Below, one piece after another: positions 54,121-62,102 of a DNA stretch of 62,102 nt. This stretch comes from Saccharomonospora sp. CUA-673. Lineage in GTDB: Bacteria > Actinomycetota > Actinomycetes > Mycobacteriales > Pseudonocardiaceae. Position numbers and translations under genes: made by a program. The notes beneath the pieces were generated by a model, which ran no database searches, had not been told where the DNA came from, and saw only the letters and a program-made list of their open reading frames with translations. Position 1 is the first letter of the stretch. Every line of letters begins with the position of its first letter. Location: NCBI RefSeq assembly GCF_001942305.1, contig NZ_MKKE01000019.1:1-62102 (forward strand), written 5' to 3'.

Positions 54121-55334
54121 CTAGAGTCCTGTAGAGGGCTCGATGAAGCCCTGTCCCCGTGCGACCCACCGAACGAGCGGATGCGGGCCGGACAGGTCCG
54201 CCAGCACCAGGTCGGCGCGCATGCCGGCGGCGATCCGGCCGCGGTCGGCCAACCCCACGGCGCTCGCCGGTCCGCTCGTCACCAACGCGACCGCCTCGGG
54301 CAGGCTGCGCACGCCGTGTTCGGCGAGCCGGACGGCCGCGGGCAGCAGCGCCGTGGGCAGGTAGTCGGAGGCGAGCGCGTCGACGAGACCGGCGGCCGCG
54401 AGTTCGGCGGCCGAGACGTTGCCGGCATGCGAACCGCCCCGGACGACGTTCGGCGCCCCGGCCACGACCAGCGCTCCCACCTCACGGGCGCGTTCCGCGG
54501 CCGCGCGCGTGGTGGGGAACTCCGCGACCCGGCCACCACGGTCGAGCAGGGCGTCGACCTCCTTCGGGCTGTCGGGGTCGTGTCCCCACAACCGGATCCG
54601 GTCCGCGCGCGCAGGTCGCCGAGCCACGTGAGGGTCTCGGCGCGGACGTGCCGATCCTGCTCCCGGCTCCGCTGCCACCACGCGACGTGCTCGGCCGCGC
54701 GGTCCGCCGTCATCCCCTCGCCCACCTCGAGCCAGCGGCGCATCGTCGCGGGATCGGCGTACTGACCCTGGCCCGGCGTGTGGTCCTCGTGCGACACCAC
54801 CGGACGATCACCGGCCACCGGCCGGGACCCGTCGAGCTCGGCCAGTCGCTGTTCCAGCTGCCGACGGCCGGACGGGCAGCGGATGTCCAGCCGGTGCAGC
54901 ACGCGGTGTTCCACGAGCCCGCCGGATTCGGCGGCGTCGATCGTCGGAGCGAGTTCGTCGGCGGCCGGTGAGTCGATCGGCAGGCCGACGGCACTGCGCT
55001 GTTGGTAGGCAAGCCCGTGGAACGCGGTGGTGATGCCGGCGCCGCGGAGCCGGGCGCTCGTCGACGCGAGGGCGAGGCCGGGGTCGAGGGAGGCGCCGGG
55101 ACGTGGGTGGCATTCGGTGTTCAACGAGTCGCTGTGCACGTCGATCAACCCGGGCAGCAGGTGCAGCCCGCCGCCGTCGACGTCGGCCGACGCGCCGGGC
55201 GGGTGCGGTCCGACGTCGACGATCACCCCGGAGCGCACGACGATCCGCGCGTCGTCGACCACCCGGTCGGGCAGCACGGCGCGGACGTGCCCCAGGTCGT
55301 AATCGGCGGGTGTGGTGAGCAGCCAGGGAGACAT
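54121..55334 (-). CDS. phnM: PhnM-type phosphonate amidohydrolase, frameshifted
   Basis: PhnM is the metal-dependent hydrolase that, in the C-P lyase pathway, releases diphosphate from the ribose-alkylphosphonate triphosphate intermediate. The family motifs HSDSLNTECHPRPGASLDPG and VVSHEDHTPGQGQYAD are present. The C-terminal part ADRIRLWGHDPDSPKEVDALLDRGGRVAEFPTTRAAAERAREVGALVVAGAPNVVRGGSHAGNVSAAELAA is in another frame after an indel near 54608. Restored length is about 404. It lies divergent from the phosphonatase-like gene, with a PHO-box-like array between. No phnGHIJ genes are present in the window, so its job here is unclear. Confidence 0.86.
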
Positions 55335-55343
55335 TCCACCGAG

Positions 55344-55357
55344 CCTGTCCGGACAGG
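55344..55357. promoter_or_regulatory. 14-bp palindrome before phnM
   Basis: CCTGTCCGGACAGG is a perfect palindrome 9 nt upstream of the phnM start, so it may lie in the untranslated leader. It could be a second regulator's operator in addition to the PHO-like array. Confidence 0.5.
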
Positions 55358-55378
55358 TCGTCCGGAAGATGAACGACG

Positions 55379-55422
55379 GTTCTCCTCGGGTTCACCTCGC
55401 ACGGGTGAGGCGTTCCCCCGGG
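55379..55422. promoter_or_regulatory. PHO-box-like array in the divergent phnM/phnX promoter
   Basis: Four contiguous 11-nt units occur: GTTCTCCTCGG (55379), GTTCACCTCGC (55390), ACGGGTGAGGC (55401) and GTTCCCCCGGG (55412). Units 1, 2 and 4 match the GTTCACC core and 11-nt period known for PhoP sites in Streptomyces. The position between phnM and the phnX-like gene suits control of both. Confidence 0.65.
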
Positions 55423-55483
55423 CGGCGGACAGTCGGGGTCGCGTCCGACGGCCGGTCCGTCGGCCCGAGCGAAGGGACCTGAC

Positions 55484-56164
55484 ATGACCGCACCGCGATG
55501 CCGCCTGGCCTGCCTCGACATGGCCGGGACGACGGTCGGCGACGACGGGGCGGTGCTGACGGCCTTCGCCGCGGCGCTCGATGCCGTCGGGTTCGCCGAC
55601 GGAACGCCGGAACGGCAGAAGGCCGTCGACTACACGGTCGAGACGATGGGCCAGTCGAAGATCGAGGTCTTCCGCGCCGTCACCGGCGACGAGACGTCCG
55701 CGCACCGCGCCAACGCCGCGTTCGAGGCGGCCTACCTCGACGCGATCCGCTCCGGTGGGGTCACCGCGATCGACGGCGCCGCCGACGCGATCGCGGCGAT
55801 GCGCGCCGCGGGCACGAAGGTGGCGCTGACCACCGGATTCTCCGCCGACACCCGCGATGCACTCCTCGACGCGCTCGGTTGGCACGACATCGCCGACCTG
55901 GTGCTGTCGCCGTCCGACGCCGGCCGCGGCAGGCCGTACCCGGACCTGGTCCTGACCGCCGTCCTGCGGTTGGCCGTGGACGACGTGCACGACGTCGCGG
56001 TCGCCGGGGACACGACGTCCGACCTGCTCACCGGGCACCGCGCCGGCGCGGGCGTCGTCGCCGGCGTCCTCACCGGCGCCCACACCGCGTCCGATTTCGC
56101 GACCGTCCCGCACACCGACGTGCTGGCCTCCGTCGCCGACCTGCCCGCCCTGCTCGCCTCCTGA
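55484..56164 (+). CDS. phosphonatase-like HAD hydrolase (TIGR03351 type)
   Basis: The 226-residue HAD protein has the phosphonatase form of motif I, LDMAGTTV (residues 11-18), with DxAGT in place of DxDGT. Lys59 in TMGQSKIEV aligns with the Schiff-base Lys53 of PhnX, and arginine rather than lysine precedes motif IV (GRGRPYPD, later GDTTSDLL). These are the signs that TIGRFAMs, as I recall, gives for enzymes acting on a 2-oxo-ethylphosphonate, separately from true PhnX. It is the first gene of the plus-strand operon and no PhnW is adjacent, so phosphonoacetaldehyde or its hydroxy form is inferred as substrate. Confidence 0.88.
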   Translation: MTAPRCRLACLDMAGTTVGDDGAVLTAFAAALDAVGFADGTPERQKAVDYTVETMGQSKIEVFRAVTGDETSAHRANAAFEAAYLDAIRSGGVTAIDGAADAIAAMRAAGTKVALTTGFSADTRDALLDALGWHDIADLVLSPSDAGRGRPYPDLVLTAVLRLAVDDVHDVAVAGDTTSDLLTGHRAGAGVVAGVLTGAHTASDFATVPHTDVLASVADLPALLAS

Positions 56165-56195
56165 CCCCTTCCCCACCAGATTCGAGGTCCCCACC

Positions 56196-57158
56196 ATGAC
56201 CACCACCCCGACCACCCGAGTGCTCGCGGCGTTGTCCGCGACCGGCCTGGTGCTTGCCGGCTGCGGCGGTTCCGCCGACGAGAACGCCACGACGGCCGAG
56301 GGTTATCCGTCGACGATCGTGCTCGGCGCGATCCCCAACGAGAATTCGACCAACCTGGCCTCCGGTTACGACCCGATCGTCGAGATGCTCGAGGAGGAGA
56401 CGGGCGCGACGGTGGAGCTGAGCCAGGCGTCCGACTACGCCGGCGTCATCGAAGGGCTGATGGCGGGCAACGTCGACATGGCGTTCCTCGGTTCGTTCGG
56501 CTACGTGATCGGCACGGAGAACGGTGCGGAGATCACTCCGCTGGGCGCGGTGACGGAGTCGGAGGACGACGACCCCGGTTACCACGCGCTGGGCATCACG
56601 CGCGCAGGCGACAACGGGATCGACGACCTGAAGGACTTCGCGGGCAAGGACATCTGTTTCGTCGACCCGAGTTCCACGTCGGGCTACCTCTACCCGGCTG
56701 CGGGCCTCGTCGAGGCCGGGGTGATCGACTCGGCGTCGGAGAACGAGATGTCCCGTTCGCTCAAGCCGGTCTACGCCGGTGGGCACGACGCGTCGGCCCT
56801 GGCGGTGAAGAACGGCGACTGCGACGCCGGTTTCTCGATGCAGAGCATGGTCGACCGCACCCTGGTCGAGAACGGCGAGCTGCAACGCGGCGAGCTCGAG
56901 CAGGTCTGGGAGTCGCCGAAGATCTCCGGTTCGTTGTTCGTCGCCCGCGACGGACTCGGCCGGGACGTCGTCGAACGGCTCACGAAGTTGATGACCGAGA
57001 AGGCCAACGCCGACTACCTGCGCTCCCAGGGTTACTGCGAGGGCGAGTGCCTGCTCACCGGCGAGGACGCGTGGGGCGTCAAGCCGGCCACCGACGCCGA
57101 TTACGACGGTGTGCGCGAGGTCTGCGACCTGACCGAGGCGGAGGCCTGCCGTGGCTGA
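56196..57158 (+). CDS. phnD: phosphonate ABC transporter substrate-binding lipoprotein
   Basis: This 320-residue binding protein has a lipobox signal (TGLVLAGC, Cys near residue 24). The phosphonate-binding family core is ENSTNLASGYDPIVEMLEEETGATVELSQASDYAGVIEGLMAGNVDMAFLGSFGYVIG, followed by GKDICFVDPSSTSGYLYPAAGL and AGGHDASALAVKNGDCDAGF. It captures a phosphonate outside the membrane for the PhnC-PhnE transporter. It lies 31 nt after the HAD gene. The four-cysteine C-terminal part (YCEGECL and EVCDLTEAEAC) is unusual for PhnD. Confidence 0.95.
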   Translation: MTTTPTTRVLAALSATGLVLAGCGGSADENATTAEGYPSTIVLGAIPNENSTNLASGYDPIVEMLEEETGATVELSQASDYAGVIEGLMAGNVDMAFLGSFGYVIGTENGAEITPLGAVTESEDDDPGYHALGITRAGDNGIDDLKDFAGKDICFVDPSSTSGYLYPAAGLVEAGVIDSASENEMSRSLKPVYAGGHDASALAVKNGDCDAGFSMQSMVDRTLVENGELQRGELEQVWESPKISGSLFVARDGLGRDVVERLTKLMTEKANADYLRSQGYCEGECLLTGEDAWGVKPATDADYDGVREVCDLTEAEACRG

Positions 57159-57942
57159 GGCAGGCGGTGACCGCACAGTCGTGCGCACGCGTGGTCTGGT
57201 CAAGCGGTTCGGCGACACGACCGCGGTCGACGGGGTGGATCTCGACGTCGAGGCGGGCGAGCTGGTCGTCCTGCTCGGACTGTCGGGGTCGGGCAAGTCG
57301 ACGTTGTTGCGGTGCCTGAACGGTCTGCATCCGGTGTCGGAGGGCGAGGTCGTCGTCGGCGACGTCGCCGTGCACGAGTGCGGGCCCGCCCGGTTGCGGC
57401 GGCTGCGCACGGACGTCGGGTTCGTGTTCCAGCAGTTCAACCTGCTGGGCCGGTTGACGTGCCTGGAGAACGTGCTCATCGGGGCGCTCGGCCGGGTGCG
57501 CGGTCCGCGGTACGGGTTGTTGACGTGGTCGGGGCGGCTCAAGCGTGAGGCGATGGGTCATCTGGACCGGGTGGGCCTGGCCGATCAGGCGTACCAGCGT
57601 GCGGACACGTTGTCCGGTGGCCAGCAGCAGCGGGTGGCGTTGGCGCGGACGTTGATGCAGGGCCCGCGGGTGGTGCTGGCGGACGAACCGGTCGCCTCGC
57701 TGGATCCGGAGAACTCGGACGTCGTGATGGATCTGCTGCGCCGGGTGTGCCGCGAGGACCGGTTGACCGTGCTGGTCAGCCTGCATCAGGTGGAGTTGGC
57801 GCTCGGTTGGGGCGACCGGCTGGTGGGCCTGCGCGGTGGGCACAAGGTGCTGGACCGGGCCGCGGCCGACGTCTCGCGCGGCGAGGTGATGGACGTCTAC
57901 CGCCGGCTCGAACCGGCGGCCGACGAGGTCGCCGTCGCGTGA
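57151..57942 (+). CDS. phnC: phosphonate ABC transporter ATP-binding protein
   Basis: The 263-residue ATPase has Walker A GLSGSGKSTLLRCLNGL, then FVFQQFNLLGRLTCLENVLIGALGR and signature LSGGQQQRVALARTLMQGPRVVLADEPVASLDPENSDVV with Walker B. The FNLLGRLT and NVLIGALGR patterns are characteristic of PhnC. GTG at 57151 overlaps phnD by eight bases, and its stop overlaps phnE by one. It energises phosphonate uptake. Confidence 0.95.
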   Translation: MAEAGGDRTVVRTRGLVKRFGDTTAVDGVDLDVEAGELVVLLGLSGSGKSTLLRCLNGLHPVSEGEVVVGDVAVHECGPARLRRLRTDVGFVFQQFNLLGRLTCLENVLIGALGRVRGPRYGLLTWSGRLKREAMGHLDRVGLADQAYQRADTLSGGQQQRVALARTLMQGPRVVLADEPVASLDPENSDVVMDLLRRVCREDRLTVLVSLHQVELALGWGDRLVGLRGGHKVLDRAAADVSRGEVMDVYRRLEPAADEVAVA

Positions 57943-59544
57943 TGTCGACTCTCACTCCGTTCCGTCCCGGCACGTCCGGGGAACCGGCGAGGCGCCGGAG
58001 TCCGGAGGGCCGGCGCCGGTGGTTGCTGGGCGTCGTCGCCGGGGTCGGTGTGCTCGCCACGGTCTCCTCGTGGTGGTACCTGGCTTTTCCCCCGCGTTGC
58101 TGGTCGAGGGCGCCGACTCGGTCGGCAACTTGCTCGAGCGGATGTTGCCGCCGGTGGTCGACGATCCGGGCCGGACGGTCGACCTGGTCGTCGAGACGCT
58201 GTTGATGGCGTTGCTGGGCACGGTGCTGGCCACCGCGATGTCGATCCCGTTGGCGTTCCTGGCGGCGCGGAACACGTCGCCGCACCCGGCGGTCATGGCG
58301 GCCGCGCGGGGTGTGATCACGTTCTGCCGCGCGGTGCCGGATCTGGTGTTCGCGGTGGTGTTCGTGCGGGCGATGGGCATCGGCGTGCTCGCCGGTGTGC
58401 TGGCGTTGGCGCTGCATTCGATCGGCATGCTCGGCAAGTTGTTCGCCGACGCGATCGAGGAGATCGACGAGGGTCCGCGCGAGGCGGTGCGCAGTACGGG
58501 TGCGGGCAGGTTGCGGGTGTTGATCAGCGGTGTCGTGCCGCAGGTGGTGCCGTCGTGGATCGGCACGTTCATCCACCGCGTGGACATCAACCTGCGCATG
58601 TCGGTGGTGTTGGGGTTCGTCGGCGCGGGCGGCATCGGGTTCGCGTTGCAGAGCAGTTTGCGGAGCCTGTCCTACGATTCGGCGCTCGGCATGATCCTGG
58701 CCGTGTTCGTGGTGCTCGCCGCGATGGAGCTGGCGACGGTGTTGGTGCGCCGGTTGTTGTTGCAGCCGTCGCCGGACCGGCCGCAGCGGGAACGGCGTAC
58801 CCGGTGGATCTTCGGCCTCGGACTCGTTGCGGCCACGGCGTATGCGTTCGTCGATCTCGGGATCAATCCGTTCACGGTGGTCATGTCGGTGCCGGAGATC
58901 GTCGACGCGGCGGCGCGGCTCGTCCCGCCGGATTTCGGCCGGGTGGGCGACGAGCTGTGGGAGGCGGTGCTGCAGACCATCGCCATCGGCGTGCTCGCGA
59001 CGGCGGGTGGGATCGCGGTGTCGATTCCGGTCGGGTTGTTGGCGGCGCGGACGGTGGCGCCCATCCGACGGTGGCGTGGGCCGCGCGGAGCGTGATGCTC
59101 GCGGTTCGGAGTGTGCCGGAGTTGATCCTGGCGGTGGTGTTCGTCGCGGCGGTGGGCCTCGGGCCGGTCGCGGGTGTGTGCGCGTTGTGTATCGGGTCGA
59201 TCGGGTTCCTCGGCAAGCTGGTCGCCGACGCGGCCGAGGAGATCGACGTCGGCCGCGTCGAGGCGGTGCGCGCGGTGGGCGGCGGCTGGTGGCAGGTGTT
59301 GTTCTCGGCGGTGTTACCGCAGGCGGTGCCGAATCTCGTCGGTTCGTCGTTGTACATGCTCGACGTCAATATCCGGCAGTCGACGGTGCTGGGGATCGTG
59401 GGCGCGGGCGGTGTCGGTTTCCTGTTGTACGAGGCTGTGCGCACGCTGAATTTCGAATTCGCGGGCGCGATCATTCTGATTATTTTCGCCATCGTTTATC
59501 TCATCGAAAGGCTCGCGGGATGGATCCGCTCCCAGGTCATCTGA
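57942..59544 (+). CDS. phnE: fused double phosphonate permease, two frameshifts
   Basis: Two PhnE domains are joined in one chain. ATG at 57942 gives MSTLTPFRPG and a first membrane segment, then an indel near 58090. The first domain continues with LLERMLPPVVDDPGRTVDLVVETLLMALLGTVLATAMSIPLAF and a permease-EAA-like loop (DEGPREAVRSTGAGRLRVLISGVVPQVVPSWIG). A linker and a second set of segments include VPPDFGRVGDELWEAVLQTIAIGVLATAGGIAVS. After an indel near 59065 a second loop follows (VGRVEAVRAVGGGWWQVLFSAVLPQAVPNLVGS). Each domain lacks nothing obvious. The fused protein forms the whole channel, where most systems use two subunits. Confidence 0.87.
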
Positions 59545-60597
59545 ACGGTTCGACGGCTTCGGTTCCGGCCACGACGGTGGCGGCCGTGTGGCGTGGTGGC
59601 TCGGAGGTGGGTCTCGAGGAGGTGCCGTTGCCGGCGCGGATGTCGGCGAGTTGGTGGTGGCGGTCGATCTGGCGACGGTGTGTGGCAGTGATCGGCACAC
59701 GGTGGGCGGGCGACGGAGCGCGCCGTGTCCGAGTGTGTTGGGGCATGAGGCGGTGGGGCGTGTCGTCGCGGCGGGTGCGGGTGCGCCGGCCGCGGTCGGT
59801 GAGCGTGTGGTGTGGGCGGTGACGGTGAGCTGCGGTGCGTGCGATCTGTGCCGTGGTGGGCGTACGGCGAAGTGCCGCAGGGTTCGCAAGATCGGGCATG
59901 AGCCGTTCGACGCGGGGTGGCCGTTGTCCGGGGGTTTCGCGGGGCACGTCGTGTTGCCGGCGGGTGCGACGGTGGTTTCGGTGCCGGACGGTCTGCCGGA
60001 CACGTTGGCCGCGCCTGCACGTGTGCCACGGCGACGGTCATGGCGGCGCTCGAGGCGGCGGGGTCGTTGGCGGGCGCGCGCGTGTTGATCTGCGGTGCCG
60101 GCATGCTCGGGCTGACGGCCGCCGCGGTCGCCACCGACCGCGGCGCCGACTCGGTCGTCGTCACCGATGTCGACCCGGCCCGACGCGCACTGGCCACCGG
60201 GTTCGGCGCCACCGACACGTTGCACGCGGCCGACGTGCCGCACACGGTGGATGTGGCAGTGGAGTTGTCGGGCGCGAGCAGCGCCGCGGCGACCGCGTTG
60301 GCCGCCCTGGACGTCGGCGGCCGCCTGGTGTTGGCCGGCGCAGTGGCGCCGGTGGCGCCGTTGGCCGTCGACCCGGAGCAGGTGGTGCGGCGTTGGCTGA
60401 CGATCACCGGTGTCCACAACTACGAACCGCGCCATCTGCGCCAGGCCATCGACCACCTGGCGGCGACGCGCGACCGTTGGCCGTGGGAGAGCCTGGTCGT
60501 CCCGGCGGTCGAGCTGGGGCGGGTCGGCGAGTTGCTCACGGCGGACAACCATCGGGTCCCCAGGCAGGCGGTGACTCCCCACGGCGTAGTCCGTTGA
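59520..60597 (+). CDS. zinc alcohol dehydrogenase of the phosphonate cluster (TIGR03366 type), two frameshifts
   Basis: The restored protein is about 358 residues. The N-terminus TVAAVWRGGSEVGLEEVPLPA is followed by an indel near 59640. Then VGELVVAVDLATVCGSDRHTVGG (catalytic zinc Cys/Ser/Asp), PSVLGHEAVGRVV, the structural-zinc quartet in VSCGACDLCRGGRTAKCRRVRKIG, and after an indel near 60018 CTCATATVMAALEAAGSLAGARVLICGAGMLGLTAAAVATD follow. I recall this clade as repeatedly associated with phosphonate-catabolism genes. It would reduce or oxidise an aldehyde or alcohol from the HAD reaction. It overlaps phnE by 25 nt if started at 59520. Confidence 0.86.
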
Positions 60598-60624: not shown

Positions 60625-61863
60625 TCAGAACGGTGGCGGGTCGAGCTCGGAAGCGCTGTCGGTTGGTGACGATCGTGGTGGGAGGACGGTTTCGCGTTCG
60701 GTTTCGTAGGTGACGCCGAGGGGTGTGGTGATCGAGGACGTGCCGTGGATGGGGTCGTAGTGGTGGATCCAGCCGGGTGCGTTCTTGAGCCCGTGGTGTT
60801 TGCGGCAGCGGGGTGCGGCGTTGGCGGTGGAGGTTGAGCCGCCGTCTTTGGCCCACTGTTTCTGGTGGTCGAAGTCGCAGTGCCGAGCTGGTCGTCGGCA
60901 CCAGGGGACGACGCACATCCGGTCGCGGGCCTCAACGAGCTTGCGGATCGTCGAATTCGGACGATACGAGGTGCGCCCCAGGTCGACGGGGTTGCCGGTG
61001 GCGGGGTCGCAGAGGACTTTGCGCCAGATCGACTTCGGGTCGGTCATGATCTCGCGGGCGTACGCGGCTGGGACTGGCCCGATGCCGTCGATCGAGGCGC
61101 CGGTCTCGGACATGGAGAGTGCGGTGTCGATGGGCATGTGGAGGTAGACCATCGCCGCCGACTGCGGAACCTGGACGCCGGGATCGTTGCCCAGGAGCAG
61201 ATCGGCGAACACGTCGGCCCGAAGCTGGTCGAGGTTCCGCGACGAGTCGCCCAGCCGAAGCTTGCGAGCCATCGCATCCACACGGGCGTAGCAGGCCGAG
61301 GCAACGTCAGAAGGCAGGTCGGCCGATAGGCGCGACTGGGCATAGACCCCGTGATCGAGCGTGACCTTGCGCCCCTCGTGGGCCATGCGAGCCGCAGCGG
61401 TCTCGGCACCGGGATCAACCTGCTTGACGATCTGCGAAGCATGCCAAGCCATATTCCGAGGCTGCCAAGCAGTAATCGACAACCGCGAGCGTTTTTCCTC
61501 AAGTAGTCGATCAACCTCAAGCGCATCAGCATCAGAAACCGGCGCAACAGTATTCAACACCCGCTCGGCGCCATATCGATCCACCTGCCCCTCCCGCATA
61601 GCGGAAAGCAGCCGAGGCATCCGATAAGTCAAAGCCAGCGCGGTGTGAATCCGATCCAACACGCCCTGCGGCGACAGTCGAAGCTCGGGCGCCAACGCCT
61701 CAGCCAGTGACCGCCGCTCCATCTAATCCGACGACGACCCGGAGTCGAGTGAAGCAAGAAACACCACCTCAGTAGCATCAGCCCGAGCCCGAAGCGCAAG
61801 CACCGAACGGGCCTCGTCGACAACCTCTCCAGCATCTCTCACGAAACCCATAATACCGAACAT
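60625..61863 (-). CDS. DUF222/HNH endonuclease, split by an in-frame amber codon
   Basis: ATG at 61863 (or 61851) opens MFGIMGFVRDAGEVVDEARSVLALRARADATEVVFLASLDSG, interrupted by TAG at 61723-61725. The next codon, ATG at 61722, begins ERRSLAEALAPELRLSPQGVLDRIHTALALTYRMPRLLSAM in the same frame. Both parts match one DUF222 domain. HNH motifs lie at CVVPWCRRPARHCDFDHQKQWAKDGG and CRKHHGLKN. The base composition is lower in GC than in the rest of the window. The gene may be a nonsense-disrupted mobile-type nuclease, or stop-restart may operate at TAG-ATG. Standalone 365-residue starts at 61722 are also possible. Confidence 0.8.
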
Positions 61864-62035
61864 AAGATCGACAATAACCACCCACAGGCATGACAAAGAA
61901 CCACTACTCAAAGTGAGCGAAATGCCCCCGGGAATCGACACAGCCGAAGCGAAGCAAGGCACCCCCGCCAACCACCCCACCCACAGAACCGCCCCGTGAA
62001 GTGTCATCCCGTCGACCTAAACCGGAACCATCACA

Positions 62036-62102
62036 CTGCAGTCAGGGCGCAACCAACAACGCAACCGGAACCAACCCCGAAAACCTTGCGCCCTGACTGC
62101 AG
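62036..62102. repeat. 17-bp perfect inverted repeat at the window end
   Basis: CTGCAGTCAGGGCGCAA at 62036-62052 and TTGCGCCCTGACTGCAG at 62086-62102 pair perfectly around 33 nt. The right arm ends at the last base of the window. Repeated ACCGGAACCA units flank the left arm and lie inside the loop. The element may be a terminator, a mobile-element end or an assembly feature. Confidence 0.75.

Follow-up and report, generated by a model that had tools for sequence, protein, structure and literature searches.

The question raised by a phosphonate island in Saccharomonospora sp. CUA-673 is where its phosphonatase-like hydrolase would obtain an aldehyde to cleave. The stretch analysed, called the window below, comprises 62,102 nucleotides of contig NZ_MKKE01000019.1. 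The island (positions 54121..60597) carries phnM, a PhnX-like HAD hydrolase, a PhnDCE importer and a zinc alcohol dehydrogenase of family TIGR03366, termed HpnZ. We propose, with a probability of about one in two, that this cluster scavenges phosphorus from 2-hydroxyethylphosphonate (HEP), which occurs in nature and contains a carbon-phosphorus bond. HEP would enter the cell through the PhnDCE importer and be oxidised directly to phosphonoacetaldehyde by HpnZ, and the HAD would cleave this to yield phosphate and acetaldehyde. Release of HEP from an ester or nucleotide conjugate inside the cell would fall to PhnM. The substrates, the PhnM step and the direction in which HpnZ works are predicted from what can be read in the sequences, i.e. 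the gene set, its conserved residues, the lack of a PhnJ match or of PhnW and TIGR03364 matches over cut-off, and the recurrence of HpnZ and PhnM together in other genomes.

Gene content of the island

Profile searches placed all six genes at the positions given in an earlier note on this DNA, and the gene order described there was confirmed: phnM is divergent from a co-directional plus-strand row of HAD, phnD, phnC, fused phnE and HpnZ. The features are as follows:

54121..55334, minus strand: phnM, amidohydrolase-fold phosphohydrolase, in two frames with a break near 54597-54612; 68-77% identity to the intact phnM of Jiangella asiatica
55335..55483, no strand: divergent intergenic region with the presumed promoters of phnM and the operon, judged by position only
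55484..56164, plus strand: PhnX-like HAD phosphonatase (TIGR03351), with D12, K59 and R150, assigned by profile score
56196..57158, plus strand: phnD-type substrate-binding protein, assigned by profile matches
57151..57942, plus strand: phnC, importer ATPase, overlapping phnD; over the TIGR02315 cut-off
58019..59544, plus strand: phnE-phnE fused permease with breaks near 58090 and 59062; a single 506-codon frame in Jiangella
59588..60597, plus strand: HpnZ zinc alcohol dehydrogenase (TIGR03366), proposed 2-hydroxyethylphosphonate dehydrogenase, with a break near 60020; a single 325-codon frame in Jiangella

The HAD is a member of TIGR03351 (226.5 bits, cut-off 218.9) and is well under the cut-off of canonical PhnX, TIGR01422 (62.8 vs 220). 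The features of TIGR03351, which we take to be DxAGT, a cap lysine and an arginine replacing the motif lysine, are present as D12, K59 and R150, and each of these residues is found in 96 of 97 other HAD loci. Thus, the DMAGT motif, Lys59 and the arginine of GRGRP hold as originally read. The equivalence of Lys59 to Lys53 of PhnX stands in part, as a shared MGxxKI spacing is visible by eye, whereas the profile alignment places this stretch in an insertion. The HAD family requires a 2-oxoethylphosphonate substrate. Hydroxyphosphonoacetaldehyde, mentioned in the earlier note as such a substrate, is weakened by the TIGR03364 member PbfD1, shown in PMC10590968 to make phosphonoacetaldehyde from N-methyl-2-aminoethylphosphonate and 2-aminoethylphosphonate.

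Among importer genes, phnC exceeds the TIGR02315 cut-off (271 vs 266 bits), as does the first piece of phnE that of TIGR01097 (301 vs 217), while phnD passes the general model TIGR01098 (182 vs 112).

Partner genes in the genome

PhnJ had no match in the whole genome of the strain, and PhnG, PhnH, PhnI and PhnJ had none within the window; a C-P lyase remnant was rejected on these grounds. Genome-wide, nothing over cut-off was found for PhnW (best 33.8 vs 400.8 bits), for the TIGR03364 FAD deaminase (65.8 vs 285.1) or for phosphonopyruvate decarboxylase (27.9 vs 312.5), the last of which led us to reject a biosynthesis cluster. The results agree with the initial description of a cluster without PhnW or C-P lyase. 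Because the genome is rated 91.6% complete, absence of the partner genes is likely, not certain.

Neighbourhoods of PhnX-like HAD genes

A scan of named genomes with six exact peptide patterns from the window's own HAD yielded 65 loci of HAD relatives, so that closer relatives are favoured in the counts; phylum and relatives surveys added more. In part of the HAD and PhnM genome surveys, scoring was limited to the best 3 to 7 first-look candidates of each genome. We counted 91 of 98 HAD rows, dropping 7 with less than 2.5 kb of flank; the rows are related to each other and include near copies. HpnW (the TIGR03364 deaminase family, its cluster checked against TIGR03364 on two members), HpnZ and PhnM were scored as present within 9 kb using profiles built from clustered neighbours, at thresholds of 200, 340 and 180 bits, respectively.

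HpnW alone occurs at 62 loci, HpnW with HpnZ at 7, all three genes at 2, HpnZ with PhnM at 6 (the window included), HpnZ alone at 4, and none of the three at 10. The TIGR03364 family is therefore near 71 of the 91 HADs, and HpnZ is present in 10 of the 20 loci without it. HpnZ is near 19 HADs, with HpnW absent nearby in 10 of them; seven of eight such genomes gave no TIGR03364 match at E 1e-20 when 91 first-look candidates were scored per genome. PhnM outside C-P lyase operons accompanies 8 of the 19 HpnZ loci and none of the 72 loci without HpnZ. The survey of PhnM co-occurrence suggested earlier thus gave 8 of 91 loci, every one with HpnZ; L215 and L232 were left out of the stand-alone count, as their PhnM genes adjoin C-P lyase genes. 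On the HAD tree, a quick one with long branches flagged, HpnZ needs at least four changes and PhnM four.

HAD and HpnZ genes overlap by 4 bases at L198, in a genome (G096) without a deaminase match. At L240 (genome G325), HpnZ, PhnD and PhnE form a single row without HAD, and the HAD and deaminase of this genome lie on a separate contig (L199).

In the same survey, a PhnX-like HAD and HpnW were seen about 10 kb or less from a C-P lyase operon with PhnI and PhnJ matches in G445, G316 and G453 (L215, L231/L208 and L232). Also recurrent near PhnX-like HADs is a family of calcineurin-like phosphoesterases about 540 aa long (L045, L052, L054, L058, L059, L067, L071, L075); three of these loci, L052, L067 and L075, yielded neither HpnW nor HpnZ.

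The HpnZ dehydrogenase

The two HpnZ pieces of the window score 171 and 206 bits against the TIGR03366 cut-off of 328, falling under it because of the frame break; the intact Jiangella copy, 75-82% identical to them, reaches 397. The pieces hold C37, H58 and C151, which we take to be the catalytic zinc ligands, and C87, C90, C93 and C101, presumably the structural ones. Two basic residues are fixed in HpnZ (21 of 21 sequences each), namely an Arg at position +11 from the first zinc-ligand cysteine and a Lys at +5 from the last structural cysteine, and an alignment of eight members agrees on both. An HpnZ paralogue of the same genome has F and M at these positions. In the solved dehydrogenase 4ej6, F and A stand opposite in gap-free stretches; the other two chains compared align to the Arg stretch with small gaps. 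These positions presumably correspond to the substrate-pocket Leu57 and Leu116 of horse liver alcohol dehydrogenase, and basic residues there would fit a phosphonate alcohol.

A second HpnZ-like dehydrogenase (G000 C44:76256-77230; L184, L237) scores 235 bits, under the family cut-off of 328, and is without the HpnZ-specific Arg and Lys; its type was seen with similar scores in other genomes of the order.

HpnZ is probably a HEP dehydrogenase. It is proposed as such because it is the oxidoreductase that recurs where TIGR03364 is missing, and it is placed upstream of the HAD because many HpnZ loci are without a deaminase and no other candidate aldehyde-making gene was seen near the HpnZ-only clusters, PhnW having been searched for in the window's genome only and pbfA in none. 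Consequently, the former assignment of the dehydrogenase to the product of hydrolysis is disfavoured.

PhnM outside C-P lyase operons

PhnM usually accompanies the C-P lyase machinery. Among 396 genomes of the phylum, it was found in 17 (E 1e-30), 14 of which have PhnJ; the three without PhnJ are G361, G120 (with a partial copy) and the window's genome. Eight of 343 genomes in the order carry PhnM; at five of these loci PhnI and PhnJ are also present, and they are missing from those of the window, G361 and G643. A PhnM step away from C-P lyase, as noticed initially in the window, therefore recurs beyond this genome.

The two PhnM pieces of the window score 116 and 180 bits with TIGR02318, and the Jiangella protein is over the cut-off of NF011984 (295 vs 260) and under that of TIGR02318 (313 vs 390.55). 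The pieces keep all 30 listed columns that are invariant across 12 C-P-lyase PhnM rows; in this comparison, the orphan column still counts L224, L229 and, twice, L047. A PDB sequence search with PhnM returned only weak dihydroorotase and hydantoinase matches.

In a 21-row PhnM tree, from which the partial L224 and a duplicate L047 row are excluded, the Jiangella copy (orthologue of the window gene) and that of G361 form a starred fork, nested in a starred set with C-P-lyase PhnM of G445 and G123. The latter (L229) is classed as C-P lyase because PhnI and PhnJ of G123 are encoded on a different contig (L230). PhnM proteins of Pseudonocardia, Mycobacterium and Curtobacterium make up a separate starred set, and a single clade of all HpnZ-linked PhnM is rejected (p-AU 1.2e-35), so PhnM reached HpnZ clusters from two sources. 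HpnZ and PhnM genes overlap by 4 bases in L033 and by 7 in L035.

Jiangella cluster and Streptomyces plasmids

The Jiangella row has two extra genes, a TIGR03364 oxidoreductase overlapping the HpnZ end and a PhoD-like phosphatase (PF09423) between phnM and HAD, with a twin-arginine (Tat-like) stretch seen by eye at the PhoD N-terminus. Neither protein found a match in the window at E 1e-3. In a plasmid collection of 72,556 records, HpnZ (E 1e-40) is present in two, both Streptomyces plasmids, and these are also the only two records with a Jiangella-type PhoD (E 1e-60); the window's HAD had no match in the collection at E 1e-30. The NBC_00841 row comprises HpnZ, a GntR-type regulator on the opposite strand, PhoD, a weak PhnD match, PhnC, PhnE and HAD, and that of NBC_01237 a regulator, HpnZ, PhoD, a weak PhnD match, PhnC and PhnE. 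The HpnW profile had no match in either 17-kb plasmid locus. Presence of PhoD in Jiangella and in both plasmid HpnZ clusters is consistent with feeding on phosphonate esters, which this phosphatase would cleave outside the cell. PhoD-like enzymes have been postulated to release phosphonates from polysaccharide esters, HEP esters included (PMC5649143).

Frame breaks and accuracy of the assembly

As overlooked in the earlier note, phnM, phnE and HpnZ each span more than one frame, at the breaks listed above. A coding-frame model, run on 20 further 20-kb stretches of this genome, counted 58 breaks over 338 kb coding (1.71 per 10 kb), and 1.15 per 10 kb coding for the window. Relatives in the genus and family gave 2 breaks in 331 kb coding (0.06 per 10 kb) over 20 stretches, and the 65 named loci 9 in 1,004 kb (0.09 per 10 kb). 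The HpnZ break and one of those in phnE escaped this count, and the second phnE break was scored as a boundary between genes; all of these were established by separate comparison. In Jiangella asiatica, the same row is unbroken, with 68-89% identity across the main aligned blocks. Since breaks are equally common throughout the genome and the Jiangella row is intact, those in the window are most likely sequencing errors.

Decay of the island by true mutations would account for the four breaks, which affect three of the six genes, and for the two Jiangella neighbour genes missing from the window row. Breaks are, however, no rarer elsewhere in the assembly, and conserved residues of phnM and HpnZ are present on either side of them. 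We regard decay as highly improbable and rejected it on the genome-wide rate.

The Saccharomonospora sp. CUA-673 assembly is of low accuracy, and care is needed with calls of gene absence and pseudogenes.

A DUF222 gene on the opposite strand (60625-61722) closes the island row. Right past the island, at this gene, G+C drops from about 0.71 to about 0.62 (60625-62102), a possible mobile-element junction.

Alternative explanations

HpnZ could instead act downstream, reducing or oxidising acetaldehyde or glycolaldehyde released by the HAD, whose own substrate would come from the deaminase or another enzyme. HpnZ and the FAD deaminase do occur together in 9 of the 19 HpnZ loci, in Jiangella as overlapping genes, so HpnZ may act downstream at those loci. 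Against it stand the ten HpnZ loci without deaminase, seven of eight such genomes searched giving no match at E 1e-20, and the 62 of 72 loci lacking HpnZ that have a deaminase, which indicate that the HAD product does not need HpnZ. Fixed basic residues at the presumed pocket positions would also be unsuited to acetaldehyde. On balance, we hold the downstream role to be fairly unlikely.

The release of HEP from a conjugate by PhnM is the weakest step of the model and is doubtful. PhnM might be a passenger from a lost C-P lyase operon with no role here, as its usual company of PhnJ (14 of 17 PhnM-bearing genomes) would suggest; yet two separate lineages joined HpnZ clusters, the window protein keeps all 30 listed invariant columns, and phnM overlaps HpnZ at L033 and L035. 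These observations make a passenger improbable. The earlier idea that PhnM replaces the deaminase, hydrolysing an aminophosphonate derivative to supply the aldehyde, agrees with 6 of 8 PhnM loci without deaminase nearby. It is contradicted by the other two, Jiangella and Curtobacterium, which have both genes, and by four HpnZ loci with neither; PhnM thus tracks HpnZ and is not a deaminase stand-in. In addition, the window PhnM keeps residues invariant in the C-P-lyase protein, a phosphohydrolase, and we know of no PhnM reaction in which an aliphatic amine is deaminated. Replacement of the deaminase is very unlikely.

Several observations weigh against the proposed HEP pathway itself. PhnD is under the equivalog cut-off TIGR03431 (179 vs 261 bits), so the imported ligand is not fixed by sequence. 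In Pseudonocardia, whose HpnZ locus is without deaminase, a TIGR03364 gene above the cut-off lies at another place in the genome, and the tree offers only four independent pairs for HpnZ against HpnW or PhnM, too few for significance. Neither HpnW nor HpnZ is near the HAD in 10 of the 91 loci, where another aldehyde source may exist or the genes may be distant. The HAD of NBC_00841 is only 38% identical to that of Jiangella, and no HAD match was found in the 35 kb examined of NBC_01237. Some stand-alone PhnM proteins differ from the C-P-lyase protein at columns invariant in the latter, with Arg in place of T91 in four rows. Furthermore, the nearest relative of the Jiangella PhnM, that of G361 (L223, 9987-14932), stands without HAD, HpnZ or C-P lyase matches; it is divergent from phnC, PhnD-like and PhnE-like genes and a 335-aa 2-hydroxyacid dehydrogenase, which by size alone we take to be phosphite-dehydrogenase-like.

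Relation to known systems

The TIGRFAMs text, quoted for TIGR03364 in PMC10590968, describes a neighbourhood of TIGR03351, TIGR03364 and TIGR03366 with PhnCDE, i.e. the same HAD, dehydrogenase and importer as in the window, and proposes the dehydrogenase downstream; to our knowledge, it mentions neither PhnM nor PhoD. The association of HAD, deaminase and HpnZ is therefore already known from this source, while the upstream role of HpnZ and the PhnM link are new proposals. The PhnW-PhnX phosphonatase resembles the cluster in a HAD with DxAGT and a Schiff-base lysine predicted to cleave a 2-oxoethylphosphonate, and differs in that the window's genome has no PhnW over cut-off, its HAD belongs to TIGR03351, and zinc alcohol dehydrogenase and PhnM are added. 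C-P lyase (PhnGHIJKLM), which makes ethylene from HEP, has PhnM and PhnCDE in common with the window, where PhnG to PhnJ are lacking. Phosphonoacetaldehyde reductase PhpC of HEP biosynthesis catalyses, in reverse, the step proposed for HpnZ but belongs to the iron alcohol dehydrogenase family (PMC9381506); HpnZ is a zinc medium-chain enzyme encoded beside an importer, in a genome where phosphonopyruvate decarboxylase has no match over cut-off.

Clusters of PbfD (TIGR03364/HpnW) with PhnX, as presented in PMC10590968, likewise have a PhnX-type enzyme without PhnW, fed by a nearby oxidoreductase; a TIGR03364 gene is present in the Jiangella cluster, whereas the window's genome has none over cut-off. 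The FAD enzymes of that paper were reported there not to oxidise HEP (data not shown in it). A HEP dehydrogenase feeding PhnX was considered in a 2025 study, where the candidate PbfF gave no phosphate release from HEP (PMC12366243). Open-access searches on the family names, on stand-alone PhnM and on catabolic HEP dehydrogenases brought up, among the matches listed by title and abstract, no paper about the combination found here.

Taken more widely, a hydrolytic pathway for HEP and HEP esters is put forward tentatively, in which PhoD or PhnM would free HEP, HpnZ would oxidise it and the HAD would cleave the product, giving phosphate without C-P lyase or ethylene; PhnM would have been recruited on two or more occasions as a hydrolase of phosphonate esters or anhydrides that works on its own. 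For the HEP dehydrogenase slot left empty by the PbfF result, HpnZ offers a concrete candidate, and in this pathway an alcohol dehydrogenase is predicted to fill the role that amine-removing enzymes have in known ones. If true, the two recruitments of stand-alone PhnM would mean its use outside C-P lyase, and the database name ribose methylphosphonate triphosphate diphosphatase would probably be wrong for such proteins.

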